Assembly (NCBI GenBank): GCA_029556545.1
Contig: JAKQEQ010000193.1
Coordinates: forward strand, 141,262-205,261
Length of the DNA stretch: 64,000 bases
Reading direction: 5' to 3'
Origin: Candidatus Hydrogenedentota bacterium
Lineage (GTDB): Bacteria > Hydrogenedentota > Hydrogenedentia > Hydrogenedentales > JAGMZX01
Shown: positions 26,873 to 48,859 of the stretch, one piece after another
Position numbering within the stretch: the first letter of the stretch is position 1
Layout of the letters: every line of letters starts with the position of its first letter
Program-made: the position numbers and the translations under genes
Notes under the pieces: model-generated
Told to the model about the DNA's origin: nothing
Database searches by the model: none
Seen by the model: only the letters and a program-made list of their open reading frames with translations

Positions 26873-26882
26873 AACCCCAACC

Positions 26883-28770: not shown

Positions 28771-28796
28771 AAACCGAGTCCCAACGTGGCTGTTGT

Positions 28797-28828
28797 GGGA
28801 GGTGCCCCTTAGTGGGATGCCTCCCCTT
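28797..28828 (+). terminator. Terminator-like hairpin before the MoxR gene
   Basis: GGGAGGTG (28797-28804) pairs with TGCCTCCC (28818-28825), with two G-T pairs, then CTTTG. Its stem matches that of the hairpin at 28503, so the two are probably duplicated modules. Confidence 0.6.
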
Positions 28829-28869
28829 TGATCCGGAACAGAGACAGAGGACCAACAGGAGATAGAACC

Positions 28870-31913: not shown

Positions 31914-33029
31914 ATGGAATTCCTGATCCGAATTTGGCATTCATACCCTGTGCTACTGGATTTCTTGCTGTACTTTTTGGTCTTCACAGCTGCGGCGAGG
32001 GTAGGCTTCGCCAAGTCGTTTCCCAGTCATGAAGGAAAGATTCTTGCGGTAGCAGTGGGCCTCTTCCTTGCCGCCTGCCTGGCAATTGCGCAACGCAAGC
32101 TCGGTTTCTCACTCGAGAGAATGGGGCCCGTGGCCGCCTTTCTGTTGTGTGGCGTGATCTTCATTGCCGCATATCGATTCATGAAACATGCGGATGTGCC
32201 CTTGCCGCTCACCGTCCTACTGTCCGGTCTGATGGCCTTGGCCCTCGCAAGAGCTGTGATGCCCGAGGCAACGGGCCGATTCGTCCGCGAGAACCCACTC
32301 ATCGTCCTATTGATCTTTCTAGGCGTCGCTTATTGGGCATGGAATAGATCGCAAGGGTATCTGGACAAGGTCGTGAACAGAAGGCCAGGTCAGCTGCTCG
32401 GAAAACACCATGCCGTACCAGATGAAGCCTTCCTGAAGAGGGAAGCCCGATTCGCGAAGAAGCAACTAAGGAGTACCACACGCCAGGGAATGAAAGAGGA
32501 GAAGGAAATCGGCGCCGACCTTGATAGGGCGACTAAGGTCGCCAACAAGGGCACGGATAGCGCCGACGATCGAGCGCGCCTTGAACGGCTCCTCGATAGT
32601 GCACTATCTAAATCTGATCATGCTCACAAATACTGCAAAAAATTGCTTCAGGTCGACGGAGCCCTCCGCCGCGTGGATGCAGGCTGGCTCAAGCGAGCGC
32701 ACGCGTTCAATCTGAATGACCTCACGCCGGAGCAACAGGCGCTACTAAAGGAGTCAATCCTGGAAGAGCGTCGACGGCTCAAGACGGAGAACGTTCTTGA
32801 AAAACTCCAAGCTGAGGTTGACAAACACCTCCAAGCAGTGACGGAGTTCGTGCGTAGAGCGAAGACCAGTCTGGATCATGGCGCGGCGGTGGGCACCGCC
32901 GGCTGGCTTGCCCGAGCTCAAGCCGAGCACGACAAGGCCGTCGAGCTCGAAAAGAAAATCTCGGACTGGGAAAGACGGCTGATAAGGCTGGTGAAAAGAC
33001 AACTTCATGAAGTGCGCGAAGCGGCCTGA
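31914..33029 (+). CDS. Polytopic membrane protein with a long cytoplasmic coiled coil
   Basis: The 371-aa protein has about five membrane helices in residues 10-150. It then has a charged, helical region to the end with coiled-coil character (KKQLRSTTRQGMKEEKEIGA, ILEERRRLKTENVLEKLQAE). Its first 100 residues share the pattern ARV.F...H.G...A.GL.A.L...A....G.....GP.AAF of the two small proteins at 33560 and 36280. It is therefore a fusion of that membrane domain to a coiled coil. A structural or anchoring role in transfer or segregation is possible. Its 3' end overlaps the convergent HTH gene by 25 bp. Confidence 0.72.
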   Translation: MEFLIRIWHSYPVLLDFLLYFLVFTAAARVGFAKSFPSHEGKILAVAVGLFLAACLAIAQRKLGFSLERMGPVAAFLLCGVIFIAAYRFMKHADVPLPLTVLLSGLMALALARAVMPEATGRFVRENPLIVLLIFLGVAYWAWNRSQGYLDKVVNRRPGQLLGKHHAVPDEAFLKREARFAKKQLRSTTRQGMKEEKEIGADLDRATKVANKGTDSADDRARLERLLDSALSKSDHAHKYCKKLLQVDGALRRVDAGWLKRAHAFNLNDLTPEQQALLKESILEERRRLKTENVLEKLQAEVDKHLQAVTEFVRRAKTSLDHGAAVGTAGWLARAQAEHDKAVELEKKISDWERRLIRLVKRQLHEVREAA

Positions 33030-33515: not shown

Positions 33516-33559
33516 GTAGAACACAGGTGCATGTTACGAAATACGAAAGGAGGAGGACC

Positions 33560-33859
33560 ATGGATATCACCTTCATCGAGACCTTCTACGCAGATCACCA
33601 GGGATTGTGCAATGTGCTGGTACTCTTGCTCGTTTTCGGGGGCATGGCTCGCGTTGCCTTCTGGCGCGAGCATGACGGTTTGCGGGTAGGCGGACCGCTC
33701 GCCATTGGTCTGGCTGCTCTGCTCACAGTAGCCGCGCTGACTTGGGCTCGCCAAGAGGGGAAAAGCGTTGCAGACCTAGGCCCTTGGGCGGCCTTCATTC
33801 TTGTCGAAGCCATATTGATAATGGGGTGGGCTGCATTAAGAAAGAGCTCGAAGGTATGA
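33560..33859 (+). CDS. Small three-helix membrane protein, family copy 2
   Basis: The 99-aa protein follows AGGAGGAGGACC. It contains MARVAFWREHDGLRVGGPLA, LAALLTVAALTWARQEGKS and LGPWAAFILVEAILIMGWAA, three membrane helices in all. It is a clear paralog of the protein at 36280 (VARIAFRREHDGLWVGG region, LGPWAAFVVVEAIL) and of the N-terminal domain at 31914. These resemble small holin-like or conjugation-type membrane proteins in size only; the function is unknown. Confidence 0.7.
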   Translation: MDITFIETFYADHQGLCNVLVLLLVFGGMARVAFWREHDGLRVGGPLAIGLAALLTVAALTWARQEGKSVADLGPWAAFILVEAILIMGWAALRKSSKV

Positions 33860-34212: not shown

Positions 34213-34824
34213 GTGCGGATAGCAATGCTGCTGAGGAAGCTTGATAGGCGAACCGTTGCGAGTGTGGTGGAGGTCCCCATCAATGACGCACAGGAGCGAT
34301 TTCTCCGGGGCATGCCGGGGACCGTCAGTGGTCGAGGCAGATTCAAAGACATCGTGATCGAATACTACTCCTACCTTTTCTCCTGGTTCTGCACAGCAAA
34401 TCCACCCGGGGGGGCACCGCCCGACTACATGGTCTATTCATACGCGGAGGACTTGCTGAAGAAGGCTTACCCTCCGCCGCGCGAAGGTGCAGAGTCCGCG
34501 TGCGCGGATGCACTTGTAGGCACGAACGGTGGTTTGCCCGGGGTCATCGAGGCCATCACTCGAGAATTCCGAGACTTGCAGGTACAGGCGTATGTCCGGC
34601 GGGCCTTCACCGAATACCTCGACGACTACTGCCATTTGCATGATTGCAGCCGCTACGATGCCAGGTGTCAACTAATGAGGGATTTCTTTGTTTACTGTGC
34701 TGACGAGCTTCCTCAAACCGTGCGAACAGACCAACCGGACCGCTATGCAACGCGCTGTGAAACGATAATCCAGGCCTACGCGGAAGGGCGTTCTGCTGCG
34801 TTGTCACGTTTGCTCGCTGGATAA
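34213..34824 (+). CDS. NGG-family protein, copy 1 (203 aa)
   Basis: GTG 34213 follows AGGAGG. This is the first of seven related proteins in the element. Shared features: an N-terminal helix with [DE]xxTVxSV or similar, a segment FKDIVIEYYSYLFSWF, the central ADALVGTNGGLPGVIEAIT, then AYVRRAFTEYLDDYCH and a final helix DRYATRCETIIQAYAEG. The invariant NGG or similar turn follows an ALxGT or CxDG stretch. I recognise no published domain. The fold appears all-alpha. Confidence 0.75.
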   Translation: MRIAMLLRKLDRRTVASVVEVPINDAQERFLRGMPGTVSGRGRFKDIVIEYYSYLFSWFCTANPPGGAPPDYMVYSYAEDLLKKAYPPPREGAESACADALVGTNGGLPGVIEAITREFRDLQVQAYVRRAFTEYLDDYCHLHDCSRYDARCQLMRDFFVYCADELPQTVRTDQPDRYATRCETIIQAYAEGRSAALSRLLAG

Positions 34825-34850
34825 CGGGGGAGATTGAGATCAATGAAAGC

Positions 34851-35447
34851 GTGGAATACATGGGCTCCTTGCAGCGACTACTGACAGACTTGGATGAAGA
34901 GACAATCGCACGACGCGTGACCCGTCTGCACGACACGGTTCGACGCAAGTACGCACTCTTCTCGACGACCGTCCGGGACTATTCGGAGTACGAGGATATC
35001 CTAAGTGACTACTATCAGTTTCACTTCGAGAACACGTTCTCGCCAACCGCTTCCTTCAGCCGCGCCGATTCGTTGGGATTAGCGAAACAGCTCATCGAAC
35101 AGGAGTACGGTCGGCGAGGTCTTGGCCGGAATGCCGCGTTCAGCGATGCTCTGTATGGCACGAACGGCGGGATGGGTCACATTCTAAACACTCTGGCCGA
35201 GGCGCTGAAAGCTGAGGCCATACGTCATTACGTGACAGATAAGTTTGATCACCATGTCTCGCCCTGCTCTTGGGAGGAGAAGGTTCACATTGTCCGGCAG
35301 TTCCTCAAACGCTTCGAGGGGACACTTCCGGCTTCTATCAGGCTAGATGAGCCAGAGAGATACGCCCGAGACTACCGTGAATTGGTGCAGCTGTATTCCG
35401 ATGCCCTGCGCAATCCGAAGACATATGTGCGGGACCTCTCGCTCTGA
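34851..35447 (+). CDS. NGG-family protein, copy 2 (198 aa)
   Basis: Start GTG 34851 is used; ATG 34860 is equally possible. The protein has RRVTRLHDTVRRKYALFSTT, VRDYSEYEDILSDYYQFHFE, the signature SDALYGTNGGMGHILNTLAE, and KFDHHVSPCSWEEKVHIVRQ, then YARDYRELVQLYSDALR. It is closest to copy 3. It lies 26 nt after copy 1, so the genes form an operon. Confidence 0.75.
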   Translation: MEYMGSLQRLLTDLDEETIARRVTRLHDTVRRKYALFSTTVRDYSEYEDILSDYYQFHFENTFSPTASFSRADSLGLAKQLIEQEYGRRGLGRNAAFSDALYGTNGGMGHILNTLAEALKAEAIRHYVTDKFDHHVSPCSWEEKVHIVRQFLKRFEGTLPASIRLDEPERYARDYRELVQLYSDALRNPKTYVRDLSL

Positions 35448-35478
35448 CACGGCCTCGCTAAGAACCGGCCTCATTGCC

Positions 35479-36084
35479 ATGAATGGAGGAGGAAACTTGG
35501 GAGACAGGCGCCCTGCCATTGACGACCTCCTAGATGAGATTAGCCCAGAACTCGTTGCTCAACGTGTGGGAAGCGCACATGATACGGCGCGGTTGTCATA
35601 CTCATGCCCAGTCCGAGGCATTGCCACCCTTTCGGATTTCGAGACCGCTATAACGGACTACTACCAGCACCATTTCACCTCATGCATAGGCCGTGGCGGA
35701 AGAATTTCCCAAGTCAACGCTCGTGGACGCGCGAGAGAGATAGTCGATGCAAGTTACCGATCGAGAGGAGGTAATTTCCTCAGTGCGTTTCGAGAATGCA
35801 GAGATGGCATTGGCCACGGCCTGCGCGGCATCCTTGACATAATCTGCGACGAACTGAAGGCGGAAGGCGAAGAGAGATATATCCGAGACGCATTCGACCG
35901 TCACGTTTGCCCTAGCTCATGGCGGGATAGAGTGGACATAATGCGTCAGTTCCTGGAGCGGTACGGGACCTACATTCCTTGTGAAGGCCGACGGACACCC
36001 GAAGAATATGCAAACGACTACGAAGACCTCATACTAGCCTACGTTCATGCACTGCGAAAAGTGCGGTCCGCGCTACATCGATGA
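35479..36084 (+). CDS. NGG-family protein, copy 3 (201 aa)
   Basis: ATG 35479 is used, but TTG 35497 sits 4 nt after GGAGGAGG and may be the true start. The protein has AQRVGSAHDTARLSYSCPVR, FETAITDYYQHHF, the signature FRECRDGIGHGLRGILDIIC and FDRHVCPSSWRDRVDIMRQF, then YANDYEDLILAYVHALR. The NGG turn is GHG here. The match to copy 2 runs the whole length. Confidence 0.75.
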   Translation: MNGGGNLGDRRPAIDDLLDEISPELVAQRVGSAHDTARLSYSCPVRGIATLSDFETAITDYYQHHFTSCIGRGGRISQVNARGRAREIVDASYRSRGGNFLSAFRECRDGIGHGLRGILDIICDELKAEGEERYIRDAFDRHVCPSSWRDRVDIMRQFLERYGTYIPCEGRRTPEEYANDYEDLILAYVHALRKVRSALHR

Positions 36085-36279
36085 ACCGCTTCATGAGGTG
36101 ATTGAGTAAGGGTTTGGGACTGGCCCCAACCGAACGTTGTGTGACCACTCTGCGGTGAAGGTTTTGGCTTCGTGTCAGAGTCGTAGTGGTCATCTCGCAC
36201 CGCCTTTGAAGCTCTTCGAGGGCCATGCTCTAGCGGAAAGTAGCCACCAAGCACCGAGATTCAATAACAGAATTGCCCC

Positions 36280-36543
36280 ATGAGCTTGAATTGGCGTGCA
36301 CCATTCCAGTTCGCAATCCAAACGGTGATGGCCCGCATCGCCTTCCGGCGAGAGCACGACGGTCTATGGGTAGGGGGATCACCTGCGGTCGGCTTCGCCG
36401 GCCTTCTGACCGTAGCGTTGCTGAAGTGGTCGCGGACAGAGGGGCGTACCATCGTGGAATTGGGTCCCTGGGCGGCGTTCGTGGTGGTTGAAGCCATTCT
36501 CATCGTGGGTTGGGTAGCCTTCAGAAAGAGCACGAAGTCATAA
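36280..36543 (+). CDS. Small membrane protein, family copy 3 (87 aa)
   Basis: The protein MSLNWRAPFQFAIQTVMARI has AFRREHDGLWVGGSPAVGF and LGPWAAFVVVEAILIVGWVA and ends AFRKSTKS. It is the close paralog of 33560-33859, with a shorter first helix. There is no clear SD. A duplicated block of one membrane protein plus NGG-family genes (33560-35447 and 35479-36543) is suggested by the alternating order. Confidence 0.65.
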   Translation: MSLNWRAPFQFAIQTVMARIAFRREHDGLWVGGSPAVGFAGLLTVALLKWSRTEGRTIVELGPWAAFVVVEAILIVGWVAFRKSTKS

Positions 36544-36871
36544 GTCGTAGAGGTCGGTAGCCGTGACCGTCTCCTCATGGTTTCCTGTAGACATCCCAGC
36601 AGTTGATTGGGCTACATCATCTTCACGGCCGTAAGGTTCGTCTCACCAGCTCCATCGCGCAGTCTCACCTATTCGAATCCCTGACTGCCAACCGGGACAT
36701 GGCATGAAGCCAGGTGCTCGTGCTAAAGTAGATGAAGCGACTTCTGAGTGGTTGTATGGGCTTGTCAGACAGGCCTTTACGCAATTGAGTTGCGCAGGTT
36801 CTGCCGTGCCCATCGAGTAACGACGTTGTACTTGGCGCGCGGCCTCTCGGTTAGCATGGGAAAGTGTCAAC
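36544..36871. other. Gap without a supported gene
   Basis: The stretch includes TTCGAATCCC near 36674, reminiscent of a tRNA T-loop, but no tRNA can be folded around it. No promoter is recognised. A remnant of an integrated tRNA-type site is possible but unproven. Confidence 0.45.
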
Positions 36872-38092
36872 TTGGCGAGTGACGAGAGACAGACTTCGGG
36901 TTGCGGGAAGAACAGGACCCGAGAAAGGGAGATACGACCCTACTCAGGTCGGACGTTGGCCGAACTCTGCCAACTGATAGCAGATTCCAACTTTCATGCC
37001 TTGGACGAGCTCATGACACATCGTAGTCCGTTCGAGACTGCCAACGGAAAACGTATCGGGTTTGTGGCTTTCTGGGAGGTGCTTCGGAATCACAAACTCG
37101 AGCATCAAGGGTACTCTAACACTGTACCCGTACTAGAGCGTGCTCTTGACCTGCTGATGGACCGCTTCACCCACAGGCCGAAAGAGAAACAGGACCTTAA
37201 GAAGGGTCAGAAGCGCAATCCACCAAAAGAGGAGGTACCGAATGCGCAATCTCTTTCCTCGGACAAGGACAAGGACAGCGAGTCCAAACGTATAGACTGT
37301 CGAAACTACTATCGTGAATACGTTGAAGAAGTGACGTCTAGCTTTAGGAAGAAACCGCCTGCAAACGAAACAGAACGCGAATTGCGTGAAGCGGAGTTAA
37401 TGCGGCATTTCGTTCGTCGGCAACTTAGATACTGCCTGAAAGAAGCGCGACGAGAAGCCAATCCTCTCTCAAGCCGTTACAGATGGAAAACGGACGAGTG
37501 GGACATTACCGTGTCCTTTCCGACGGCTTTCGCCGGCGACGCTAGGCGTAAGTGGCTTCAAGAACACGTTGGGCGCCCGGACATGTCAAAACCCTGGGAG
37601 AAGGAACGCATTCAGGCGCTGATCGACGAGGAATTTGGGCGTCCTAACCTTGTTCCAATGACCCCGTCATCGGAGAAGCGCGCTGCAAAGAAACAGTCTT
37701 CACCATCGGCCAGCATCGAGAAGACTGAACTAAAGGGCATGCGCCGGTTCGTTGCAGACGAAAAAGCAGCACGGATCAAAGACCAGCCGCCGAAAATACG
37801 TGAGTTAGGCAAGAGAAAGCTGCGCAGGTTAGTCCTCGCCGTGCTTGAGAATTGGGAGTCTGAGGAGAAGTCCGACGCCGATTTGGCCCTTGAGTTTGGC
37901 CTGAGCACAGCCACCTATAGCCGATTCGCAGGTAAGAAGAGGAGAGGGAAGAAGGCGATTCTGGTCGTCAACATTGCCCGCATCATGAAGGCGAATCCCG
38001 TTTTCCTGGAAGCGGCGCGCCACGCGGGTTTTCTCAGACGGATAGCCAAAGCTGCGGAAGATGGCAGCGAAGGAGGTTCCCATGGCACATGA
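36872..38092 (+). CDS. Unrecognised 406-aa basic protein with a helix-turn-helix-like C-terminus
   Basis: TTG 36872 opens the frame; the true start could be downstream, since the SD is weak. Residues 28-105 are helical (GRTLAELCQLIADSNFHALD, VLERALDLLMDRF). The middle, about 110-300, is very rich in Lys, Glu and Arg. The C-terminal segment SDADLALEFGLSTATYSRFA resembles a helix-turn-helix, followed by a basic KKRRGKKA stretch. It overlaps the next start by 11 nt. It may be a DNA-binding or accessory replication protein. I find no known family. Confidence 0.6.
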   Translation: MASDERQTSGCGKNRTREREIRPYSGRTLAELCQLIADSNFHALDELMTHRSPFETANGKRIGFVAFWEVLRNHKLEHQGYSNTVPVLERALDLLMDRFTHRPKEKQDLKKGQKRNPPKEEVPNAQSLSSDKDKDSESKRIDCRNYYREYVEEVTSSFRKKPPANETERELREAELMRHFVRRQLRYCLKEARREANPLSSRYRWKTDEWDITVSFPTAFAGDARRKWLQEHVGRPDMSKPWEKERIQALIDEEFGRPNLVPMTPSSEKRAAKKQSSPSASIEKTELKGMRRFVADEKAARIKDQPPKIRELGKRKLRRLVLAVLENWESEEKSDADLALEFGLSTATYSRFAGKKRRGKKAILVVNIARIMKANPVFLEAARHAGFLRRIAKAAEDGSEGGSHGT

Positions 38093-38744
38093 GATGTACT
38101 TCATCCCTATCCTCCTCGATGCGTTTGACGCGCCAGACGTCCGGCAAGCCCTAGATCTTGCGTTCGATGAAATCCAGAGGCTGGGCTGCCAGCCTGGGTA
38201 TGAGTCAGGATTTAATCACTTCCAGGAGTTCTTGGAACTCGTGGCGCAGGTTCAAGGGGTTGAAGCACCTGAAGATCTGGAAGCCGCTGCTCTAGAGGCG
38301 CTAGTGGCTGAATTGGAGCAGCCCGCCCAGCGCGGAACCTTGGCTGAGCTTCTTGAAGCATATCCGGAAATGCGTCGACGCTACGAACGACTTGCGGATG
38401 CACTGGATCAGGACTCCGAGTCGCAATCGCTCGAACTAGTTGTGCAGCATGGAGAGGATGTCCTGGGTTCGTTCGACGTGCTGCGCGGGGGCGTCTTGGG
38501 AAGGTTTGGCGGAGTCCATCCAGGATATTATCGGATATCTCTTTCTTCGGGCCGAGTCTTATGGGACGGGGAGATTGCGGAATCAGACGTTATTATCGCG
38601 GGAAGGCCATTAGAGCTGGCGGCAGACACGGGGGAACCGGCGGCGGAAGCTTCACGGGATATTTCCCTGATGAATGGCGAGATCATGATGTGTGTCTATC
38701 CGGGCATTGAAAGCGGGACTGTCGTAATCGAGCGAATGAGGTGA
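38082..38744 (+). CDS. Unrecognised 220-aa acidic protein
   Basis: ATG 38082 follows GAAGGAGGTTCC, so the upstream in-frame ATG at 38061 is not preferred. The first 110 residues are helical and acidic (FDAPDVRQALDLAFDEIQRL, LEAAALEALVAELEQ). The last 90 are strand-rich (GRFGGVHPGYYRISLSSGRV, LWDGEIAESDVIIAG). It lies 4 nt before the Lon-like fusion gene, so the two are probably made together. No function is assigned. Confidence 0.65.
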   Translation: MAHEMYFIPILLDAFDAPDVRQALDLAFDEIQRLGCQPGYESGFNHFQEFLELVAQVQGVEAPEDLEAAALEALVAELEQPAQRGTLAELLEAYPEMRRRYERLADALDQDSESQSLELVVQHGEDVLGSFDVLRGGVLGRFGGVHPGYYRISLSSGRVLWDGEIAESDVIIAGRPLELAADTGEPAAEASRDISLMNGEIMMCVYPGIESGTVVIERMR

Positions 38745-38748
38745 GACC

Positions 38749-40437
38749 ATGGAGACCAAGGGTGTAGTCAAAGAGATCGGACGCACCCGTATTGCGCTAG
38801 TTGACCGGCCTTCGGCGATGTCTTTCATCTGCAGTCTGAACGTCTCACCTCGGGAGGACAGCAGTCGAAAGGTTATCCGTTTCTCTGAGGAAGCCATGGC
38901 CTCTCATGACACAATCGACCATGTGGACACGGTCGTTGTTCCACTTCTCAGGGGCGTTCTGAAGCCTCTCGGCATGGCCGCGGGCAAGTGGAACGTGACG
39001 CTGGAGCCTCTCGAAGCGGCGGCTGCTCATGAATTACCTGTGTCCATGTCCGGCTACTCTGCCGATTTGCCCCTATTCCTCGCTCTTCTCTCCGCGAGCC
39101 TGCGGCTGCCGTTGCGGGGGGATGTTGTTGCTACGGGCCGATTTGCCTCCTCAATGGGTGAGGTGGGTTTGGTGAAGCATATTGCAGAGAAGCTCACTGC
39201 AGCGCAAAAACATCCACAGATTCATCAATTCGTTTGCCCAAGTTTTGGTGCGGACGGTTCTTTGGATGCCCTGTCGCCGGTCGAGCATGAAAGACTTAGC
39301 GAAGCCTTGGCCAGGGCGCGCGGTCGCTTGAGGGTGTCATTGGTTCGGGGCGTTGACAACCTTCTTAGCGAGGTCTTTGACGAAGAGGATCTATGCCTGT
39401 CCAGCTTGCACACGGGGCATTTCGGTCGGCCGACTGGCGTCACTGAAATGGAAACGCCGGCAGCCCGCGCGGCACATCACCTCGGCAACGAAAACGAGAA
39501 GCGATTCTGGCGCAGTCTCGGCCGGGCGTTTGAGGTTCAGGACCGAGAGTTGGGAGCGAGGCTATTGACCGCCTTCCTTGAATATTCCGACGCCCGTGGC
39601 GCCTATCCTTCGGGAGTCGGGGCGAGAGTGCTTCACCTGTTGCGCGCACTTCCCCCTGTCTTGCGCAAAGCAATGCGCGGGCCGCTTGTGCCCTCAAGTC
39701 TCTGCTTCAGTGTGCTCCGCCACGCTCAGGAGAACGATGCAGAAGATGCAGAACTGCTCTTGCGCGCGAACCGTGGTCAGGCGTGGCACGTCAAAGGAGA
39801 CTTGATAGACGACTCGCCTCCTCGGATGTCCGGGCCCACAGATGATGATGAGGTCTATGATCGGGTATGGGATGCCATCATTCGCCAGTTGAGTGAAGAC
39901 CATATTGCAGAGACGATCGACCTAGCCATTGACGAGGCATGCCTCTCCTTTAACCTCAGCTCTGGGGTTGTGGACTCGGAGGAGGAATTCGTCGAAATAA
40001 TCACATCCTACTATCTGCATTTACAGGCCAAAACGGGGGTGGTGTATACTCCCGAGGCCTGCGGTTTCGCTTATCGTGACGCCGTAAGACTTGTCGAGGA
40101 GGCCTTCCACAATGAAGGAGGCCTGAAAGTGGCGAAGCTCCAAGGCCGTCAAGGCACGAACGGTGGCTTGCGCACCGTGATTGGAAAGATGACCGATACA
40201 TTCAAGATGCAGGCGCATCGAGACCATTTCCTTTTGGTGCTCGGGACCGCGTTGGAAGGAAAGGACGAGCATGCAAAGGTGAAACTGGTGAAGGTCTTCC
40301 AGCGACGATTCGCGGACCTGCTTCCAAAGGATGTCGTGGAAGCAGACCCCCAGTACATTGCCGACCACTGGAGTACGATCATCAGAGCTTGCGCGCACTA
40401 TCTGGATGGGCTTAAGAGTATGATCAGGAAACTGTAG
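38749..40437 (+). CDS. Lon-protease-like domain fused to an NGG-family domain (562 aa)
   Basis: Residues 90-155 match the Lon (S16) proteolytic fold: VSMSGYSADLPLFLALLSAS, with Ser104 in the place of the GPSAG nucleophile, then DVVATGRFASSMGEVGLVKH with lysines at 143 and 148. Which lysine would complete the Ser-Lys dyad is not certain. There is no ATPase domain. A helical linker (residues 240-360) joins it to an NGG-family domain at about 370-562, with EFVEIITSYYLHLQAK, the signature RQGTNGGLRTVIGKMTDTFK and VKLVKVFQRRFADLLPKDV. The fusion gives the only enzymatic hint for that family. Confidence 0.72.
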   Translation: METKGVVKEIGRTRIALVDRPSAMSFICSLNVSPREDSSRKVIRFSEEAMASHDTIDHVDTVVVPLLRGVLKPLGMAAGKWNVTLEPLEAAAAHELPVSMSGYSADLPLFLALLSASLRLPLRGDVVATGRFASSMGEVGLVKHIAEKLTAAQKHPQIHQFVCPSFGADGSLDALSPVEHERLSEALARARGRLRVSLVRGVDNLLSEVFDEEDLCLSSLHTGHFGRPTGVTEMETPAARAAHHLGNENEKRFWRSLGRAFEVQDRELGARLLTAFLEYSDARGAYPSGVGARVLHLLRALPPVLRKAMRGPLVPSSLCFSVLRHAQENDAEDAELLLRANRGQAWHVKGDLIDDSPPRMSGPTDDDEVYDRVWDAIIRQLSEDHIAETIDLAIDEACLSFNLSSGVVDSEEEFVEIITSYYLHLQAKTGVVYTPEACGFAYRDAVRLVEEAFHNEGGLKVAKLQGRQGTNGGLRTVIGKMTDTFKMQAHRDHFLLVLGTALEGKDEHAKVKLVKVFQRRFADLLPKDVVEADPQYIADHWSTIIRACAHYLDGLKSMIRKL

Positions 40438-40456
40438 ATGAGGAGATGTTTGGGGC

Positions 40457-41035
40457 ATGAGCGCCATAGACGTACTGATAGAGGAACTGAATGAGCACGC
40501 GATTCTTCACAACGTCGCGGGAAGACATGACGATGCGCGACTGCAGTATCAGTTGTCCAAGAACACCGTTCGGGATTTTGCCGAGTTCAGCGAGATTGTT
40601 GGTTCCTACGTTCAGCATGCCTACAGCGCGTGCGTTATCCACGGGGGATGGATATCGAGTATGGATGCCGCGAGCATTGGGAAAGACCTGCTGGATAGAC
40701 ATCAGGGAGGCAGGCGTGGTGACGCCCAAAGTATCTACAGAGACTGCAAAGACGGGCTCAACGGCGGAATGCGAGTCTGCTTGGACCTCCTTTGTGAAGA
40801 ACTCAAGCGGCAGGCCGTTGATCGGTACATTCGGGATGTTTTTGACCGGCATTTGCCTAAGGACGACCCTGACTTGAGGCTGCGTATGGTAGAGGAGTTC
40901 ATTGAGCGCCATTCGGACGTGCTACCGGGCATTGACCGCGATAGACCGTGGCTGTATGTGAAGGATATTGAGACTCTTATTCGTGCTGTGGTGGGTGCAG
41001 CCGAACAGATGGCCTCTGTCTATCGAAGAATCTGA
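40457..41035 (+). CDS. NGG-family protein, copy 5 (192 aa)
   Basis: The protein MSAIDVLIEELNEHAILHNV has AGRHDDARLQYQLSKNTVRD, a FxxFSEIVGSYVQHAY stretch, the signature CKDGLNGGMRVCLDLLCEEL and VDRYIRDVFDRHLPK, then IETLIRAVVGAAEQM. It follows the Lon fusion by 19 nt with AGGAGAT upstream. Similarity to copy 3 in the CxDG[LI]xxG[ML]R region is clear. Confidence 0.75.
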   Translation: MSAIDVLIEELNEHAILHNVAGRHDDARLQYQLSKNTVRDFAEFSEIVGSYVQHAYSACVIHGGWISSMDAASIGKDLLDRHQGGRRGDAQSIYRDCKDGLNGGMRVCLDLLCEELKRQAVDRYIRDVFDRHLPKDDPDLRLRMVEEFIERHSDVLPGIDRDRPWLYVKDIETLIRAVVGAAEQMASVYRRI

Positions 41036-41191
41036 CGTGGGCTCTGCCCACAACCCAGTGGAGCGCCGCAGACCCGTCAGTTTTCACGCTTTCTAAACCC
41101 TTGCAGAAGAATCGCTTATGTCTGGCAAGTATAAAGCTTCTTGTTCTTTCTTGTTGAAGCTGGAGTCTAAGGTACTAAAGGGGATCAAGCG

Positions 41192-41755
41192 ATGATGTCC
41201 GGATTGGATTTCCTCGTTGATGACCTTACTCGCATCTACGATGAGTATTTGAGCAAGGTAGACCGTGCAGTGAATGCGTTTTCCTCTCGGTCCTTTTCCG
41301 CTCACGACTGGAGTTCATGCGAGCGACTCATGGAGAGGTTCTTCGCGGACATCAATGCGGCCGTTTTGGATCCTTCTTTTGCCGGCAATGCGTACATGGC
41401 CAGAAGCACGTTCCGCCAGGTGTTCGAGCCCAAGTATGGACCGTACCCCGAACGGCTCGTTTACGAGAGGATTATCCACGGCCATGATGGGGGCCTCAAC
41501 GGCGTGATTCAAGAGGCGGCCGCCGTCGTAGCCGATACCTTTGCCGAACGTGCCATTTCGAACCGCGTTGACCGGTACCTAGACAGACAATCCGACGGCG
41601 CTGTTCGCCTTGCAGCGTCCGATTATCTGTTTACGTTTGGTCACCTACTTCCGAAAGACGTGACAAGCAAGGGTACCGACTACTTGGTGCCAGTTTTCGG
41701 GCGGTTCCTGAAGCAGCATCCGAGGTTGGTGCGCAAGCTCCGCAACATCCGCTAA
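41192..41755 (+). CDS. NGG-family protein, copy 6, divergent (187 aa)
   Basis: The protein starts MMSGLDFLVDDLTRIYDEYL and has SSCERLMERFFADINAAVLD, the signature RIIHGHDGGLNGVIQEAAAV and NRVDRYLDRQSDGAVRLAAS, then RFLKQHPRLVRKLRNIR. The GG turn is kept, but the flanking segments differ more than in other copies. The 156 bp upstream contain AAGTATAAAGC (41127-41137), a possible TATA-type box at a poor distance. Confidence 0.65.
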   Translation: MMSGLDFLVDDLTRIYDEYLSKVDRAVNAFSSRSFSAHDWSSCERLMERFFADINAAVLDPSFAGNAYMARSTFRQVFEPKYGPYPERLVYERIIHGHDGGLNGVIQEAAAVVADTFAERAISNRVDRYLDRQSDGAVRLAASDYLFTFGHLLPKDVTSKGTDYLVPVFGRFLKQHPRLVRKLRNIR

Positions 41756-41782
41756 ACAGAAATCCCGCGGCTAGTTCCGCCG

Positions 41783-41799
41783 CCCTTCTTTTAGAAGGG
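41783..41799 (+). terminator. Short hairpin before the VirD4-like gene
   Basis: CCCTTCT (41783-41789) pairs with AGAAGGG (41793-41799) around TTT. The right arm also supplies the SD AGAAGGGAG of the gene at 41809, so folding could hide that SD. Confidence 0.5.
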
Positions 41800-41808
41800 A
41801 GCTTCCGG

Positions 41809-44274
41809 ATGCCCACAGTGCCAGTGCCGTCTCAGAATGAATCGCCGATGTTGGCGGACAAGCTCCAGCTAGTCTGTGCGCGTGAGCTGATGAAGGGATG
41901 TACCCCAACCATTCACTCTGAGCCGGTGTGCATCGAGCCGGCCCATGAGCCCATGCGCGATCCCCATGAGGTCATGCGGAAACCAGACTGGTCCATGTGC
42001 ACACCCGCGGCTGTACTGGAACCCTCGGAGTGGTCACGGTACCAAGTGTGGATACCAGTCGATTACGAATGCGATTGGCTGAGAACAGAGGCTTTTATCA
42101 AACAGCTGCAGGTGATGTCGCATCACATGGTCTATGAAATCTGCGGGGGCCACGACCGGGTTGTTGTCAGCATTCTCTGCCACGCCGACGACGCCCCCGT
42201 TCTCGATGTGGCCTTCTCGAGTCAATTTCCAGGTTGCGAGCTGTCTTCGTTGCCTGTGTCGTCGCTGATCACGATGTTTGATGAGGCCCGGGACAGCTTC
42301 GCGTTTGTTGAGACATGCATGCCTCCTCCGTACACAGAGCAACTCACGCGTCCGGCCGAATTCCAGACTCCCCCGCTGGAGGTCTTTCTACGCGCGCTAT
42401 CGGGGTTGCCTGCAGACACAGTTGGTGTGTATCAGGCCATAGTCCAGCCGTCCCATCCCGACCATCGGTGGCATCGGAATGTCGAAAAACTAATCGACAT
42501 TCAGTATCTCGCCGGGCTTTACGGTACCCAACAGATGCAATATCGGTATGCCCAACAGGCGCCCTCTGGTCAGTTGAATGCCATGGCCAACGACGTGGAG
42601 CGCAAGGCGCATCCGGATAAGCCGTTCTTTCACGTATTGGCCCGGGTGGGTGTGTGGACCAGCCACACGGAAGAGCGCATGGCACTTCTTCGAGCCCTGG
42701 CGACTTTCATGGGTTTGTTTCAACATGGCGGACAGCCGCTTCAGTTTGTGTCGTCTCAAGACTACCTTCAAGTACTCGCCCCCTCCCAGATACGCGAGAT
42801 GTTCATCTGGGGAGTAACGCATCGCCCCGGAACCTTACTCAACAGTCTGGAGTGTTGTGGCCTGTTCCATCTGCCTCCCCTTGCCTTGCTGGCGGAAAGG
42901 GACATAGAAGGGTGTGTCCTCGCCCCGGCCCCGGCGGATTCGGGAGCATACAGTGGCGGCACACTCATCGGTTACACACGGCGGCTGGGGAACCAACACG
43001 AAGTTCATGTAAGCGATGAGCTGCGCCTCGAACACACCCACATAATAGGGCGCTCTGGGAAGGGAAAATCGAAGTTGATCGCGGGCATGTGCCTTCGCGA
43101 TATTGAGCGCGGGCACGGAGTCGCGGTCATTGACCCTCATGGCGATTTGGCGAAGGACATAGCCGCGCGTTTGCCGGAGGAGGCGGTGGAGAAGTGCATA
43201 TACTTCGAGCCAGGTCACCCCACCTCAGTGCCGCTCTGGAATCCACTTCATGCCTATGGTCTTCCGGATCGGGTTGTCGACGATTTCATCCGTGCCTTTA
43301 TGAATATCACCGACGGATGGGGGCACCGAGTGGAAGGTCTGTTCAGGCAAGCCCTATATGGCCTCATCGCTTGTGGTGAGGCCACCTTGCACAACGTGGA
43401 TATTTTGCTCACACCTGACGATCCGGAGTCGAAACGCCTTCAGAAGAGGATCCTGGAAGTGGTCAGGAATCCAACGTCGCGTCACTTCTGGAAACACGAA
43501 TACAAAACCTACCGACGCGTTGACCTTGCCCCGGCGCACAACAAGTTGATGAAGCTCTTGCTCTACGACACGCCGTGCCTGATGTTCGCCCAGAAAGAGA
43601 GCCGTATAGACTGCCGGGAGATCATGGACAACAGTGGTATCCTCATTGCAGACCTTTCTTCACTAGGACCTGAGGCACAGGATGTAATCGGGTCCTTGCT
43701 GCTCTCTTCACTTTTCCACGCGGGAATATCACGCAGTAACATTGATGATGAAGGGCGCCGCGTGCCGTTTCATACCCATGTGGACGAAATGCATCGCTTC
43801 GTCAATGACGGACTTCCAAAGATGCTCGTGGAGATGCGCAAGTTCGGCTGCAGTCTGGTTCTTTCCTCGCACTACTTGGGGCAAGTTGAATCCCACAAAC
43901 GTATTGAAGCGCTGAGTGGCGTGGGGACCACGATTGCCTTCCGGGTGGGCTCTGAAAGAGTGGAGCAAGTCACACGTTTCTTGGGGGGCGAGGTTGAGAA
44001 AGACGAACTGTTGAAGCTCGAGCGGCAATATGCGGTGGCACGCCTGGAATCCGAGGTTTTTCGAATCAAGACGCCTGACCTGCCGTCTCCGAAAGATACG
44101 ACCACGGCGGCCCGTGTGAAGCGGCATTCACAAGAGCGGTACGCAATGCCGGCCGAGGAGATCTACGCCGAACTGGGAATTCCGAAACCCAAGTTTGGTG
44201 GGCAATACCGCCACACGTTCAACAAGCGTGTTTCGCAATCCGAGCACGAAGAGTACGCTTACGATGAGCTTTGA
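41809..44274 (+). CDS. VirD4/TraG-like coupling ATPase (HerA-FtsK superfamily)
   Basis: The 821-aa protein has an N-terminal region of 400 residues without clear membrane helices. Then come Walker A IIGRSGKGKSKLIAGM (residues 412-427), VAVIDPHGDLAKDIAARLP, Walker B THVDEMHRFVNDGLP, and SLVLSSHYLGQVESHKRIEA. These mark the DUF87/TraG-D type of DNA pump that delivers DNA to a transfer channel. No relaxase or channel genes are visible in the window, so transfer may depend on helper functions or use another mode. The stop overlaps the next start by 11 nt. Confidence 0.82.
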   Translation: MPTVPVPSQNESPMLADKLQLVCARELMKGCTPTIHSEPVCIEPAHEPMRDPHEVMRKPDWSMCTPAAVLEPSEWSRYQVWIPVDYECDWLRTEAFIKQLQVMSHHMVYEICGGHDRVVVSILCHADDAPVLDVAFSSQFPGCELSSLPVSSLITMFDEARDSFAFVETCMPPPYTEQLTRPAEFQTPPLEVFLRALSGLPADTVGVYQAIVQPSHPDHRWHRNVEKLIDIQYLAGLYGTQQMQYRYAQQAPSGQLNAMANDVERKAHPDKPFFHVLARVGVWTSHTEERMALLRALATFMGLFQHGGQPLQFVSSQDYLQVLAPSQIREMFIWGVTHRPGTLLNSLECCGLFHLPPLALLAERDIEGCVLAPAPADSGAYSGGTLIGYTRRLGNQHEVHVSDELRLEHTHIIGRSGKGKSKLIAGMCLRDIERGHGVAVIDPHGDLAKDIAARLPEEAVEKCIYFEPGHPTSVPLWNPLHAYGLPDRVVDDFIRAFMNITDGWGHRVEGLFRQALYGLIACGEATLHNVDILLTPDDPESKRLQKRILEVVRNPTSRHFWKHEYKTYRRVDLAPAHNKLMKLLLYDTPCLMFAQKESRIDCREIMDNSGILIADLSSLGPEAQDVIGSLLLSSLFHAGISRSNIDDEGRRVPFHTHVDEMHRFVNDGLPKMLVEMRKFGCSLVLSSHYLGQVESHKRIEALSGVGTTIAFRVGSERVEQVTRFLGGEVEKDELLKLERQYAVARLESEVFRIKTPDLPSPKDTTTAARVKRHSQERYAMPAEEIYAELGIPKPKFGGQYRHTFNKRVSQSEHEEYAYDEL

Positions 44275-44875
44275 GATCGCCGACAACCCCCGCGATTTGT
44301 TGCAGCAGATGCTGGCCGAACTGGACGAACGAGAACTGAGGCGGCAGATTGATGACCCTGTGGACGCCGCCGTCGCGGAGTATGTGGGGCAGCTAAGTAT
44401 GCCTTCCCCGCCGACACAACGAGACGTCCTGGATGCGGTATCCGGACTGCTCCGGCACGTCTACTGCAAGGGGCTGGCCTTTCGACGTGAGTTGCCGACA
44501 GGCCAAGTCCGCCGTGAAGCCGCCTTTCTCCTTGAGAACTGCTACGCTGGTACTGGTGGCCGTGGCTTTTCCGTGGCCTTGTCCGAGGCCTGCGCTGGCG
44601 GGCACGACGTTGTTGTGTCGGTCCTGATGACGTTGGGGGACGCAATGAAAGCAGTCGAGCGACGTAAGTTCTTGTGGGTTACGTTGACGGGGCGGCTGTC
44701 TTTGCTCCCCCTGGAATCGCGGTATCGGCTCGCGGAGCATGTATGGGAAGCGTGGTCACCGCACCTTAGCAAAGTGGCCGCCCTAAGCCCAAGAGAGGTC
44801 GCAGCCCGGCTCCCCGAACTCGTGCTCGAGTTCGCCGAAAGCGACAACCACATTCGCCGTCTATTCGCAAGCTAG
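44264..44875 (+). CDS. NGG-family protein, copy 7, most divergent (203 aa)
   Basis: ATG 44264 overlaps the coupling ATPase gene. The protein MSFEIADNPRDLLQQMLAEL has LRRQIDDPVDAAVAEYVGQL, GVDAV-type spacing in the next helix, the site EACAGGHDVVVSVLMTLGDA, and ESRYRLAEHVWEAWSPHLSK. Length, helix order and the GG turn fit the family, but identity is low. It may be its coupling partner because the genes are translationally linked. Confidence 0.6.
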   Translation: MSFEIADNPRDLLQQMLAELDERELRRQIDDPVDAAVAEYVGQLSMPSPPTQRDVLDAVSGLLRHVYCKGLAFRRELPTGQVRREAAFLLENCYAGTGGRGFSVALSEACAGGHDVVVSVLMTLGDAMKAVERRKFLWVTLTGRLSLLPLESRYRLAEHVWEAWSPHLSKVAALSPREVAARLPELVLEFAESDNHIRRLFAS

Positions 44876-44970: not shown

Positions 44971-45513
44971 ATGTTGTTTCGAAAGGACATGGAGAGAGAG
45001 AACGGTGTCTGGGTCGACCGCGGCATTGACGGACGTGTTGATGCTTTCTCCATTTGTGGGTCCTGCCGTGAAGACCTGCATGCCAATGACCCGGAAGGCC
45101 AGGATTGGCATGAAGGTCAGGAACTGTGTCCCTCATGCAGGACGGATTTCCAGGCCCATGCGCTGGCGGTCGATCTGCTCGGGCTGTCTCGCCCGTTCAA
45201 TGGCATGCTTGAAGATCGGGTCCTGACGAACGACGAAGTGGACGCGGAGCCGGCTCGGGCGGTACCGGGCGCGATCGAGTACTTCTCCCCGCCTGAGGAG
45301 AGCCTTCCCAAGCATGGTGCTGGGGACCCTCGCTTGTTTGGAGAAGGCGACGCTCTTTCCCCGGATTCAGTTGGCCCGTTGCAGGTTGGGATGGAAGACC
45401 CTTTTCGTCTCGACCCCAACTACCGGCCGTTTCCGGGCTTGGCCAATCCCTTGCTTCCGCAGCCTAATGACTACTTCTTGCCCGGTATGGAGGGCTACTT
45501 CCTGCCGGAATAG
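44971..45513 (+). CDS. Zinc-finger-bearing 180-aa protein
   Basis: The protein MLFRKDMERENGVWVDRGID has one zinc ribbon near residues 29-55 (CGSCREDLHANDPEG, LCPSCRTDFQ). Beyond residue 90 it is Pro/Gly-rich and acidic with repeated DPxFRLDPNYRPFPG-like turns. No enzymatic motif is present. It is followed 19 nt later by the primase-like gene. It may be an accessory protein of DNA processing. Confidence 0.6.
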   Translation: MLFRKDMERENGVWVDRGIDGRVDAFSICGSCREDLHANDPEGQDWHEGQELCPSCRTDFQAHALAVDLLGLSRPFNGMLEDRVLTNDEVDAEPARAVPGAIEYFSPPEESLPKHGAGDPRLFGEGDALSPDSVGPLQVGMEDPFRLDPNYRPFPGLANPLLPQPNDYFLPGMEGYFLPE

Positions 45514-45532
45514 TTGGAGCGAGCATTTCGAG

Positions 45533-46570
45533 ATGTTGGAAAGAGACCCCAGGAGTACAGCCGAGAAGACAGACCTGTTTAGGGCGGCTTTCCCAGGCCT
45601 CGACCACGTCTACGGCACCTACGATCTCGGCAGTGGCCGTTCGTGGCAGGTGAAGCAACCGGTGACCGATGAAGTCATCGTCAACCACATTATGGGGAGG
45701 AAACCCCTTGGGAGGTACCTTCTGACTGGTACACACACGCGTGCCGTTGTCGTCGACTACGACGACGATGTTCCGGACCTGCCCATAGAGTTCTTGAATC
45801 AGGCCGCACACTACGAAGTTCCGAGCTATATCGAGGTCAGCAAGGCCAAGGGCTTTCATGTTTGGCTCTTTTTCGAGGACGACGGAGTGCCCGCTGTCAA
45901 GGCCCGAGCCGTGGTGAAGCACATCCTGGATGAAGTCGAGCACAACGTCGAGGTGTTTCCGAAGCAGGACGTCATCGACCTAAGCCGCGGTGAATATGGC
46001 AATTTCATCAATTTGCCGCTCTTTGGAAGGCTTGTTCTGGAGGGACGCACTGTGTTCGTTGACCCGGCAAACGGCTTGCGCCCTGTGCCCAACCAGTGGA
46101 GACTGATGGAGGTCTTCCATCGCGTCAGTGAATCCGTTCTCGACGAGATTATCGAGATCAATGAAATCGAGGTGGATTGCCCGAGGGATTCTGCTGTCAG
46201 TCTCGTCTTGGGCACCGTCGAGCAGGGATGGGGGCTTCCGCCATGTGCGAGGCGCATGTTGGCGGAAGGCGTGACGCATGACCAGCGCGTTGCCTGTTTC
46301 CGCTTGTCCGTTCACTTCAAGCGGCAGGGGGTCCCGTTCGACATAGCTGTGGCGGCTCTTCGCGAATGGTCGAAGAAAAACCGTCCGTCGGGCGGCAAGC
46401 GGACCATCACCGCGACGGAGATAAAGGCTCAAGCAGCCAGTGCGTTCGACAAGGACTACCGCGGGTGCGCTTGCGACGACCCGGCCATTGCTCCTTTCTG
46501 TGTGCCTACGTGTCCGATCGCAATCAAGACCGCCCAAGGTCCCGCCGCCTCGAGTTGTCAAGACGGGTAG
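45533..46570 (+). CDS. Archaeo-eukaryotic primase-like protein (AEP)
   Basis: The 345-aa protein contains the catalytic acidic motif AVVVDYDDDVPDLP, the motif KAKGFHVWLFFEDDG (sxH type), and SRGEYGNFINLPLFGR, a combination seen in the AEP superfamily of TOTE-type and plasmid primases. The C-terminus has a Cys cluster CACDDPAIAPFCVPTCPI, perhaps for zinc or Fe-S. It would start DNA chains for the element. Together with Orc1/Cdc6 it points to archaeal-type replication. Start ATG 45533 has a weak upstream SD. Confidence 0.8.
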   Translation: MLERDPRSTAEKTDLFRAAFPGLDHVYGTYDLGSGRSWQVKQPVTDEVIVNHIMGRKPLGRYLLTGTHTRAVVVDYDDDVPDLPIEFLNQAAHYEVPSYIEVSKAKGFHVWLFFEDDGVPAVKARAVVKHILDEVEHNVEVFPKQDVIDLSRGEYGNFINLPLFGRLVLEGRTVFVDPANGLRPVPNQWRLMEVFHRVSESVLDEIIEINEIEVDCPRDSAVSLVLGTVEQGWGLPPCARRMLAEGVTHDQRVACFRLSVHFKRQGVPFDIAVAALREWSKKNRPSGGKRTITATEIKAQAASAFDKDYRGCACDDPAIAPFCVPTCPIAIKTAQGPAASSCQDG

Positions 46571-46682
46571 CCCGGAATCTGGATGATGGATCTGAACGTC
46601 CACTGAAATCACGTTCCTGTTTCCTCCGCTTATCGGATTGGCGGGAACAGCGCCAATTTGACTTGGAAAGGAGGTGAGAAAC

Positions 46683-47048
46683 ATGAGCGAACTGAAGATG
46701 ACTGTGGAACGGGGTGACCCCCTTCCCGTCGGGAAACACGCGGCGAAAGTCATTGACGTGGATGAGATGGAAGGGCCCCATGGTCCCATGGTCCGCTTGC
46801 GCTTCAGGGTCAATCACGAGGAGTGCGTTCACGAGGTGACCGCTCTCGCCAGTAAGAAACTGAGCCAGCGCACCAAGCTTGGTCGGTGGGCCTCGGCCAT
46901 CCTGGGTCGGGAGATCGAAGTTGGCGAGCAGATTGCCGTGTCGGATCTGCTCGACAAGCCGTGCATGGTGAAGGTAGAGCACAAGACCACCGACGACGGC
47001 TACGTCTTCGCCAATGTCGTCGACATCGAAAACGAAGTGCCGTTCTAG
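46683..47048 (+). CDS. Putative OB-fold ssDNA-binding-like protein
   Basis: The SD AAAGGAGGTGAGAAAC precedes ATG 46683. The 121-aa protein MSELKMTVERGDPLPVGKHA has RLRFRVNHEECVHEVTALAS, a RTKLGRWASAILGREIEVGE segment, and strand-rich ends (ANVVDIENEVPF). This pattern is common among small phage and plasmid proteins predicted to bind ssDNA, placed next to primases. The role is inferred from context and pattern only. Confidence 0.7.
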   Translation: MSELKMTVERGDPLPVGKHAAKVIDVDEMEGPHGPMVRLRFRVNHEECVHEVTALASKKLSQRTKLGRWASAILGREIEVGEQIAVSDLLDKPCMVKVEHKTTDDGYVFANVVDIENEVPF

Positions 47049-47127
47049 TGATAGGCCCACTTCCCACAGAACGGAAACAAGGTCCACAGGCAACAAGGCT
47101 CTTGGCCTCGGAAAGGAGTACGAAAGG

Positions 47128-47373
47128 ATGAGCCGGAGGAAGGACAGCTCGGTTGGCCGGAAGGGACTCGCCAAAGCCAACCCTACTCCCTACCTGTCGC
47201 CCAAGGACCTAGCGGAGCGGTGGCGGTGTTCGCGGCCGACGGTCACGCGGATAGCTGAGCGGGCAGGGCTCCGCCGCTTCTGCCTGGGCGAGGGCCGCAA
47301 CGGCATCGTCCGGTATCTCAGGGAGGAGGTGGAGGCCTACGAAGCCTCCCGATGCGTCGGAAGCAACCCCTAA
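47128..47373 (+). CDS. Excisionase-like helix-turn-helix protein
   Basis: ATG 47128 follows AAAGGAGTACGAAAGG. The 81-aa basic protein has YLSPKDLAERWRCSRPTVTR, a MerR/Xis-type helix-turn-helix, then IVRYLREEVEAYEAS. Small proteins of this sort beside a phage-type integrase act as excisionases or recombination directionality factors. A terminator separates it from the converging integrase. Confidence 0.75.
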   Translation: MSRRKDSSVGRKGLAKANPTPYLSPKDLAERWRCSRPTVTRIAERAGLRRFCLGEGRNGIVRYLREEVEAYEASRCVGSNP

Positions 47374-47462: not shown

Positions 47463-48635
47463 TCACCCCCTGATGATTCGAAGATCGGGTTTGCCCAGGT
47501 CGTCGAACTCCACTGAGTCCGCCAATGCTTCCGGCTGAAGCGCCGCATAGTGGCGCCGGCAGATTTCCGGCGAATTGCCCATCAACGCGGAGATCTTGTA
47601 CAGGCTCTCGCCCTTCATCGCCAGCTGGCTGCCGAAGGTATGACGGTAGTCGAGGCAGGACCAAGAAAGGCACGCCTTCTTGTTGGCGTCACGAAGCACA
47701 TGGGAGAAATTGTCTCCGTCCCACCGGAGCCCCTTCGGCGTGGGGAAGAGCCATCGTCCGGGGACCACGCGGCACGCGTAGGCGTCCAGATAGGCCCGCA
47801 GCGCTCGACTGACAGGCACGGCGCGATTCCGTTTTGTCTTGGGTTCCCAGAATTCGCCATCCACCGTCTTTGCGTGCACCCGGATGACGCCGTGCACGCC
47901 AGCAGTCAAATCCAGGTCGTTGAGTTGCAGCCACAGCGCCTCTTCACGGCGAAGCCCGGCGTAGATGTAGACGGCGACCATCGTCTGAAGCACGGGATGG
48001 TCGGCAAGCGCCTCGAGTTGCTGCGCGATCTGCCTCTTCGTCAGGAACCGGATCTCGGGCGCGGACTCCCGCTGGCGCTCGACCTTGGCCGCGGGGTTCT
48101 GGCCACCGGGCATGCGTACTCCCCGCTGGGTCATGGCCCACGAGAACAGGCGGCTCAGGATCTCCCGGTAGCGGTTTCCCGTCTTCGGGGCGATGCCCTC
48201 CTCACGAATGCGCCTGGCAATGACTTCGGATATCTCGCCGACGGTGACCTGTTCGATGTATTGGGACTGAATGCGGAATCGCTCCGGTTTCCGTCTGGAC
48301 CGGCGTACGCCCTTCCGCCCTTGGCTCGCCACTCCTGTCTTCGAAAGGTCGTCGCATATTGGGCCGAAGAGATCGCTCAAGTACCACAGGTCGGACCGGA
48401 CGCTGTGCGCCGTTTTGGTCATGCGGATGTGGTCGACGTAGGCCGCCAGGATCTCGGCTGTCGGTGTCTTCGTGGGGCCCCCTACGTCTTCGCCCCGATA
48501 CAGGCGGGACTCCAGTTTCCGGAGTTTCTCCTTGGCGACCTGCAGGGAGGGTGTGTGGAGGCATTGTCGGACCTGCCTGTCGCCGTCGTAGTACTGGGCG
48601 TAGTAGGTCTTGCCGCGTTTCTTGAGACTTGCCAT
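47463..48635 (-). CDS. int: Tyrosine integrase of the tRNA-fMet-borne element
   Basis: I place the start at 48635, 7-8 nt after AAAGGAG; an upstream open stretch adds 41 unlikely residues. The 390-aa protein has an N-terminal arm domain (KKRGKTYYAQYYDGDRQVRQ), a core-binding domain and a catalytic domain with AGLRREEALWLQ, DYRHTFGSQLAMKG and NSPEICRRHYAAL, which carries the Tyr. Position 3 of the pentad is Asn where His is usual (GHS replaced by GNS). It lies 148 bp from the tRNA 3' end, the ordinary site of such integrases. This integrase is bacterial in style, with a good SD. Confidence 0.9.
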   Translation of the reverse strand: MASLKKRGKTYYAQYYDGDRQVRQCLHTPSLQVAKEKLRKLESRLYRGEDVGGPTKTPTAEILAAYVDHIRMTKTAHSVRSDLWYLSDLFGPICDDLSKTGVASQGRKGVRRSRRKPERFRIQSQYIEQVTVGEISEVIARRIREEGIAPKTGNRYREILSRLFSWAMTQRGVRMPGGQNPAAKVERQRESAPEIRFLTKRQIAQQLEALADHPVLQTMVAVYIYAGLRREEALWLQLNDLDLTAGVHGVIRVHAKTVDGEFWEPKTKRNRAVPVSRALRAYLDAYACRVVPGRWLFPTPKGLRWDGDNFSHVLRDANKKACLSWSCLDYRHTFGSQLAMKGESLYKISALMGNSPEICRRHYAALQPEALADSVEFDDLGKPDLRIIRG

Positions 48636-48782
48636 ACGGAGCTCCTTTCGTGGCCGCCTACCGTATAAGCGGCAGCCAAGTTGGGCTCGTGGCAAGTCCT
48701 CCGAATCTACTAGGGTACAATTTAGGGTACACAGCCCCAAAAAAAGAAGGACTTGCATCGCTGCAAGTCCTTTGATACCAAT

Positions 48783-48859
<77 letters not shown>

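Follow-up and report, generated by a model that had tools for sequence, protein, structure and literature searches.

The effector-associated domains (EADs) of nucleoside triphosphate-dependent conflict systems are small, mostly helical, non-enzymatic domains that occur in several copies (Kaur et al. 2020, PMC7159879). The TOTE conflict systems are built from TPR, OB, TBP and effector components (PMC12458937). Other described systems with which the present locus can be compared are the HerA and TrwB/VirD4 DNA pumps, the archaeal LonB/LonC proteases, and the integrative elements that target tRNA genes. Here, we describe a locus in a Candidatus Hydrogenedentota bacterium (assembly GCA_029556545.1, contig JAKQEQ010000193.1, positions 141,262 to 205,261; this stretch of 64,000 nucleotides is called the window) that encodes seven copies, p1 to p7, of a family of ~190-aa domains, which we label F. 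The F family has a confidently predicted fold, has no relative in the libraries searched, and is always accompanied by one particular set of protease, DNA pump and primase in mobile elements of distant phyla. This points to a machine of which we found no description, and the open-licence literature contained no account of such a module. The carrier, a tRNA-targeting integrative element, is of a known kind, whereas the core of the module is not. This set of eight genes is a concrete candidate for the means by which elements that lack recognisable conjugation or capsid genes spread.

An earlier note, made from the sequence of the window, had proposed seven homologous proteins or domains at this locus. 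Each was confirmed as an open frame or a domain (Table 1), and the source genome contains exactly these seven copies. They fill approximately 39% of positions 34213-44875 (4161 of 10663 bases) rather than the quarter first estimated. In pairwise phmmer comparisons, the homology of p1 to p5 was far above chance (1e-7 to 1e-39) and that of p6 and p7 was marginal (best values 0.0015 and 2e-5, respectively), in a database of only the seven sequences; E-values from such small databases overstate significance. The membership of p6 and p7 becomes firm when orthologues are included. When subfamily profiles of orthologues only were compared, all six pairings had probabilities of 98.0-99.8% (p6-p5, 98.3%; p7-p5, 98.5%; Lon-C-p5, 99.8%; p6-p7, 98.0%; p7-Lon-C, 99.4%; p6-Lon-C, 98.4%; Lon-C is the C-terminal domain of the Lon-type protease). 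Furthermore, the p6 hidden Markov model (HMM) detected p5-type proteins at 4e-10 and the p7 HMM detected the Lon-C type at 4e-19. The common ancestry of all copies, 6 and 7 included, is thus borne out.

The signature motifs attributed to the family are partly present but degenerate. An intact GTNGG is limited to p1, p2 and p4; it is replaced by GLNGG in p5, GIGHG in p3 and GHDGG in p6, and p7 has no counterpart. FDxH occurs in p2, p3 and p5 only. There is no shared catalytic residue, because no column is invariant in the alignments of 31 and of 49 members. The AlphaFold2 model of p5 is all-helical with eight helices (predicted local distance difference test score, pLDDT, 93.1; predicted template modelling score, pTM, 0.85). 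In this model, the motif forms a turn between helix 90-99 and helix 104-132, no active site is visible there, and the motif looks structural rather than catalytic. In a full-length model of p4 (pLDDT 80), the C-terminal domain repeats the F helix order with similar helix lengths, as judged by secondary-structure comparison only. The F proteins are mostly neutral to acidic, and none has a transmembrane segment.

No credible match to F was found in Pfam, either for the family or for any of 31 members taken separately, or in PADLOC, PHROGs and NCBIfam. A 31-row F profile gave no credible match among PDB sequences. A Foldseek comparison of the F model with PDB structures and predicted viral proteins gave a best E-value of 1.6, with TM-scores of at most 0.30 among the matches listed. 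Judged by these fold searches with a predicted model, F can provisionally be regarded as a new fold. Profile search and structure prediction, which the note had proposed as checks, thus failed to place F in a known family and kept p6 and p7 within it. Its statement that no described family resembles F holds for the sequence and fold libraries searched.

Four of the seven copies, p4, p5, p6 and p7, represent ancient classes (F4 to F7), and p1-p3 are extra copies in a variable slot. Related elements in genomes G007, G048, G004 and G062 carry four F copies at fixed places: one fused to the Lon-type protease, two before the pump and one after it. In a 32-row tree of Hydrogenedentota sequences, each of the four classes forms one clade, and p1-p3 fall inside the F5 class but outside the pair of p5 and its G048 counterpart. 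In a 49-row tree with other phyla added, class labels change four times against a minimum of three, compared with an average of 27 in shuffles; the exceptions are the diverged copies of G525 and p1. p1 has a long branch and is placed in the F5 class in one tree and unsurely in the other. Recent tandem duplication as the source of the extra copies is therefore ruled out by the trees for p2 and p3, which by their tree positions are not recent duplicates of p5, and is uncertain for p1. The slot is filled by other genes in G048 (~12 kb) and G004 (~18 kb), and the other sampled elements have no spare F copies except for a local duplication in G363 (L169:3142-7613), a partial tandem repeat of LonF-F5 within the module whose copies are separated by a pump fragment. 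The sevenfold expansion seen at first thus holds for three extra copies of this element only; copy-number comparison gives four conserved copies elsewhere, and the core, made up of four old classes, is not the product of a recent radiation. Of the functions that had been suggested for the expansion, subunits are supported by the joint retention of the four classes across elements and phyla. Immunity specificities receive little support, as the core classes are old and the multiplied class, F5, far from being hypervariable, is better conserved than the other F classes (mean identities: F5, 36%; F6, 28%; F7, 22%).

The four classes lie in a module with the core order HTH (helix-turn-helix)-like protein, beta protein, Lon-F, F5, F6, HerA/TrwB-type pump, F7 and archaeo-eukaryotic primase (AEP), followed by a tyrosine integrase. 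Every relative stems from a draft genome, and contigs are broken in many of these. Among the 68 Hydrogenedentota genomes available for search, the same eight genes are found wherever contigs are long enough (G000, G004, G007, G048 and G062), and G002 and G003 have contig-end fragments of the module only. In a sample of 386 genomes, the F family was found in two phyla beyond Hydrogenedentota, and phylum-wide searches there were positive in 4 of 132 and 3 of 14 genomes. These phyla have the gene set of Hydrogenedentota in G347 and G525 and in G363 and G467, and part of it in G468 and G386; profile E-values are, for example, 2e-154 (Lon-F) and 5e-294 (pump). The modules of G347, G467 and G525 are split over contigs; in G525 the order is altered (F5-F6-SIG-BETA-LonF-pump-F7-AEP over two contigs, SIG being our working label for the HTH-like protein) and the set is intact. 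The module is therefore shared by integrative elements of at least three bacterial phyla. One more phylum (195 genomes searched) yielded only a 22-bit fragment. A viral origin was rejected: viral contigs contained distant pump relatives only in profile searches and no F genes, and searches of plasmid and phage records were negative. Across elements, sequence identities are correlated between gene 1 and Lon-F (r 0.89), F5 and Lon-F (0.78), and F6 and AEP (0.81); these correlations are weak hints, as related elements share history.

In 10 proteins, an F domain forms the C-terminal part of a Lon-type protease. The Lon domain of p4 matches the Lon domain of M. jannaschii in profile search (2e-9) and, over its whole length, the fold of solved Lon proteases (TM-score up to 0.80, normalised by target). 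Ser104 and Lys148 are invariant in 10 of 10 proteins from three phyla and align with the positions of archaeal Lon that we take to be the catalytic Ser-Lys dyad. Loss of the catalytic lysine, a first reading by eye, was ruled out by this alignment and the invariant Lys148. The Lon-type domain is likely to be proteolytically active because the dyad is invariant. Like archaeal LonB/LonC (PDB 1xhk, 1z0e, 7eux), p4 has the S16 fold and a Ser-Lys dyad in similar surroundings. However, the serine context is mostly G-[YFH]-S in p4-type proteins versus D-G-[PD]-S in archaeal Lon, a scan of the p4 chain found no AAA+ or other ATPase domain, and a helical region and the F domain follow instead. That the neighbouring ATPase supplies mechanical work to the protease is speculation.

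The pump shares its ATPase core with the HerA and TrwB/VirD4 pumps (profile matches, TrwB 2e-6 and HerA 7e-5), and the ATPase motifs are kept across eight orthologues. Unlike those pumps, it has no membrane anchor by hydropathy (maximum 19-residue value 1.46) and is linked to F proteins in these elements only. The N-terminal ~380 aa have no Pfam match. The earlier description of the pump as VirD4-like fits the ATPase core but not the missing anchor. When the element genes were scanned with Pfam, no relaxase or type IV secretion system (T4SS) was recognised, for an element whose left end is not defined. Related ATPases (25-38% identity) are spread over many phyla, Patescibacteria among them. 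They were of no use as a guide to F genes, since none of 75 pump loci outside Hydrogenedentota had F genes nearby.

The carrier resembles tRNA-targeting integrative (conjugative or mobilizable) elements in its tyrosine integrase beside a tRNA or transfer-messenger RNA (tmRNA) gene, excisionase-like HTH protein, ArdC antirestriction gene and variable cargo. It differs in that no relaxase or T4SS is recognised and in its Orc1/Cdc6 initiator, AEP primase and F-Lon-pump core. Nine elements have a tyrosine integrase after the primase (G000, G048, G007, G347, G525, G363, G467, G468 and, as a fragment, G386). The neighbouring targets are tRNA-Met (G000, G048), tmRNA (G007), tRNA-Arg (G347, G386) and tRNA-Pro (G525). 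The window contains no direct repeat of the tRNA end at a far boundary, and the left end was not found; a copy with two mismatches lies at G000:C134:105006. In the sister species G001, sought as an empty site, synteny is broken.

We tentatively favour, at a little below even confidence, that F4-F7 form a scaffold coupling the Lon-type protease to the pump, with a role in the processing or transfer of the element's own DNA. F domains would be non-catalytic, soluble, all-helical domains, and the four classes obligate subunits of the element core. Because they lack a conserved catalytic residue and a membrane segment and are mostly neutral to acidic, they are most naturally seen as binding or scaffold domains. 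Paralogous subunits usually bind each other, and F domains most likely do so in a hetero-oligomer, as the joint retention of four orthologous classes suggests. Because one class is fused to the protease, this oligomer may position the protease beside the DNA pump; the pump and primase, being constant neighbours, may be its clients. The protease might then remodel or release a partner while pump and primase act on element DNA, and p1-p3 would be F5-related spare or alternative subunits in the variable slot. Several points weigh against this explanation. The contacts of F proteins with each other, with the pump or with the protease are ones that we infer. The route of transfer is unexplained, as the scanned element genes include no recognisable gene for a relaxase, a membrane channel or a capsid, and neither the attachment-site repeat nor the left end was found when looked for. 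Kinase, ThiF, JAB and HerA-like genes adjoin the module in several relatives, which also fits defence or conflict. In a bolder reading, which we consider rather unlikely, F would be a new fold and the scaffold of a new kind of machine that mobilises (or packages) DNA and also contains the Lon-type protease, HerA-type pump and primase. Such a machine, carried by integrative elements of several phyla, would have no relation to conjugation systems or known viruses.

A conflict or defence module on the EAD principle is rather unlikely, though the strongest competitor. F domains would be homotypic adaptors, the Lon-type protein the effector, the HTH-like and beta proteins sensors or regulators, and pump and primase would act on invading DNA. 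As in effector-associated domain systems (PMC7159879), a small, helical, non-enzymatic, multicopy domain is terminally fused to the protease in one case and encoded by neighbouring genes in the others. The pump weakly resembles Mad8, and the AEP domain matches the AEP-TOTE Pfam model; the TPR, OB and TBP components of TOTE systems were not seen in the module. We do not rate this explanation lower because five relatives (L036:3998-14251, L032, L034, L038 and L170) carry conflict-type genes directly upstream of the module, encoding kinase, beta-propeller-like, coiled-coil and HerA-like ATPase proteins, and the G004 cluster also has ThiF (E1-like) and JAB-like genes. Kinase, ThiF and JAB were assigned by Pfam in G004 or G347, and the rest partly by eye. 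However, this apparent conflict or ubiquitin-like cluster is missing from the element in the window, and G467 has different genes there. The module always lies by an integrase and with a primase, that is, in the backbone and not the cargo. Each F copy of an operon is closer to members of its class from other elements and phyla than to its neighbours, whereas EADs in adjacent genes resemble each other most. At ~190 aa and eight helices, F is larger than most EADs, none of its stand-alone copies is joined to a core component (VMAP, iSTAND, Ubl, GAP1), and its host is an integrative element. Pfam EAD profiles gave no match in 31 F members, a result that holds if Pfam includes the EADs.

F5-type copies might instead be exclusion or immunity factors, p1-p3 being orphan copies that protect against related elements. 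This would fit p2 and p3, which lie in the variable slot and have deep branches within the F5 class, remote from p5, like genes acquired from other elements. Nevertheless, we consider this improbable, given that F5 is the most conserved F class and that spare copies are missing from other sampled elements save for the duplication in G363. Very improbable is a DNA-containing particle with F as structural protein, the HerA-type ATPase as packaging motor and the Lon-type protease maturing the shell: a packaging-superfamily ATPase, a primase, an integrase, the fusion of one of four small paralogues to a protease and the failure to find a conjugation channel speak for it, but F matches no viral protein family or fold, F genes are absent from the viral contigs searched, and neither genes for lysis, tail or portal proteins nor a known capsid gene were recognised.

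Table 1. Features of the locus in window coordinates (ORF, open reading frame).
Feature	Coordinates	Strand	Remarks
p1, extra F-domain protein	34213..34824	+	203 aa; GTG start
p2, extra F5-type protein	34851..35447	+	198 aa; GTG start
p3, extra F5-type protein	35479..36084	+	201 aa; listed ORF from 35347, likely start 35479
Module gene 1, HTH-like protein	36872..38092	+	406 aa; weak C-terminal HTH-like signal; working label SIG
Module gene 2, beta protein	38082..38744	+	~220 aa; likely start 38082 within listed ORF 38061-38744
Module gene 3, Lon-F (p4)	38749..40437	+	S16 domain ~1-210; helical middle ~212-341; C-terminal F domain
p4, F domain	39847-40437	+	C-terminal ~197 aa of ORF 38749-40437
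Module gene 4, p5, stand-alone F domain	40457..41035	+	192 aa; F5 class
Module gene 5, p6	41192..41755	+	187 aa; F6 class
Module gene 6, HerA/TrwB-superfamily DNA-pump ATPase	41809..44274	+	821 aa
Module gene 7, p7	44264..44875	+	203 aa; F7 class; 11-base overlap with pump gene
Small protein between F7 and primase	44971..45513	+	conserved; Hydrogenedentota elements only
Module gene 8, archaeo-eukaryotic primase	45314..46570	+	AEP-TOTE, E 6e-28; true start probably after 45513
Conserved small element protein	46674..47048	+	
HTH_17 excisionase-like protein	47014..47373	+	
Tyrosine integrase	47463..48758	-	primase end of module
tRNA-Met (CAT)	48783..48859	-	presumed integration site

Among the remaining module genes, gene 1 was considered as a sigma factor, an identity that we do not claim, as the HTH matches found with Pfam in nine orthologues were all weak and scattered. 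Gene 2 has a conserved C-terminal domain that is beta-rich by eye only, and library profiles gave no match to it.

Several further features were seen in the window and in related elements. Small membrane-protein genes at 33527-33859 and 36280-36543, 69% identical over 210 bases, flank p1-p3 and are also related to part of 31914-33029. The initiator gene (21060-22325, minus strand) encodes an Orc1/Cdc6-type protein with AAA+ and winged-helix domains, and has orthologues in the G048 (8e-174) and G004 (8e-195) elements. A block of GP88-like, VWA-metallopeptidase-like, MoxR ATPase and SAP-like genes (26237-31748) is common to the G048 and G004 elements and was not seen with the module in other phyla. 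Three adjacent, overlapping tyrosine-recombinase genes (7491-10832, minus strand) have a recombinase-in-trio layout. Upstream of the G467 module (L190:9625-12373) lie type I restriction-modification genes, HsdM-like by eye. G062 contains several different partial copies of the module in one genome (contigs C364, C300, C133, C591, C75 and C8; L037-L042), and related elements may therefore share a host.

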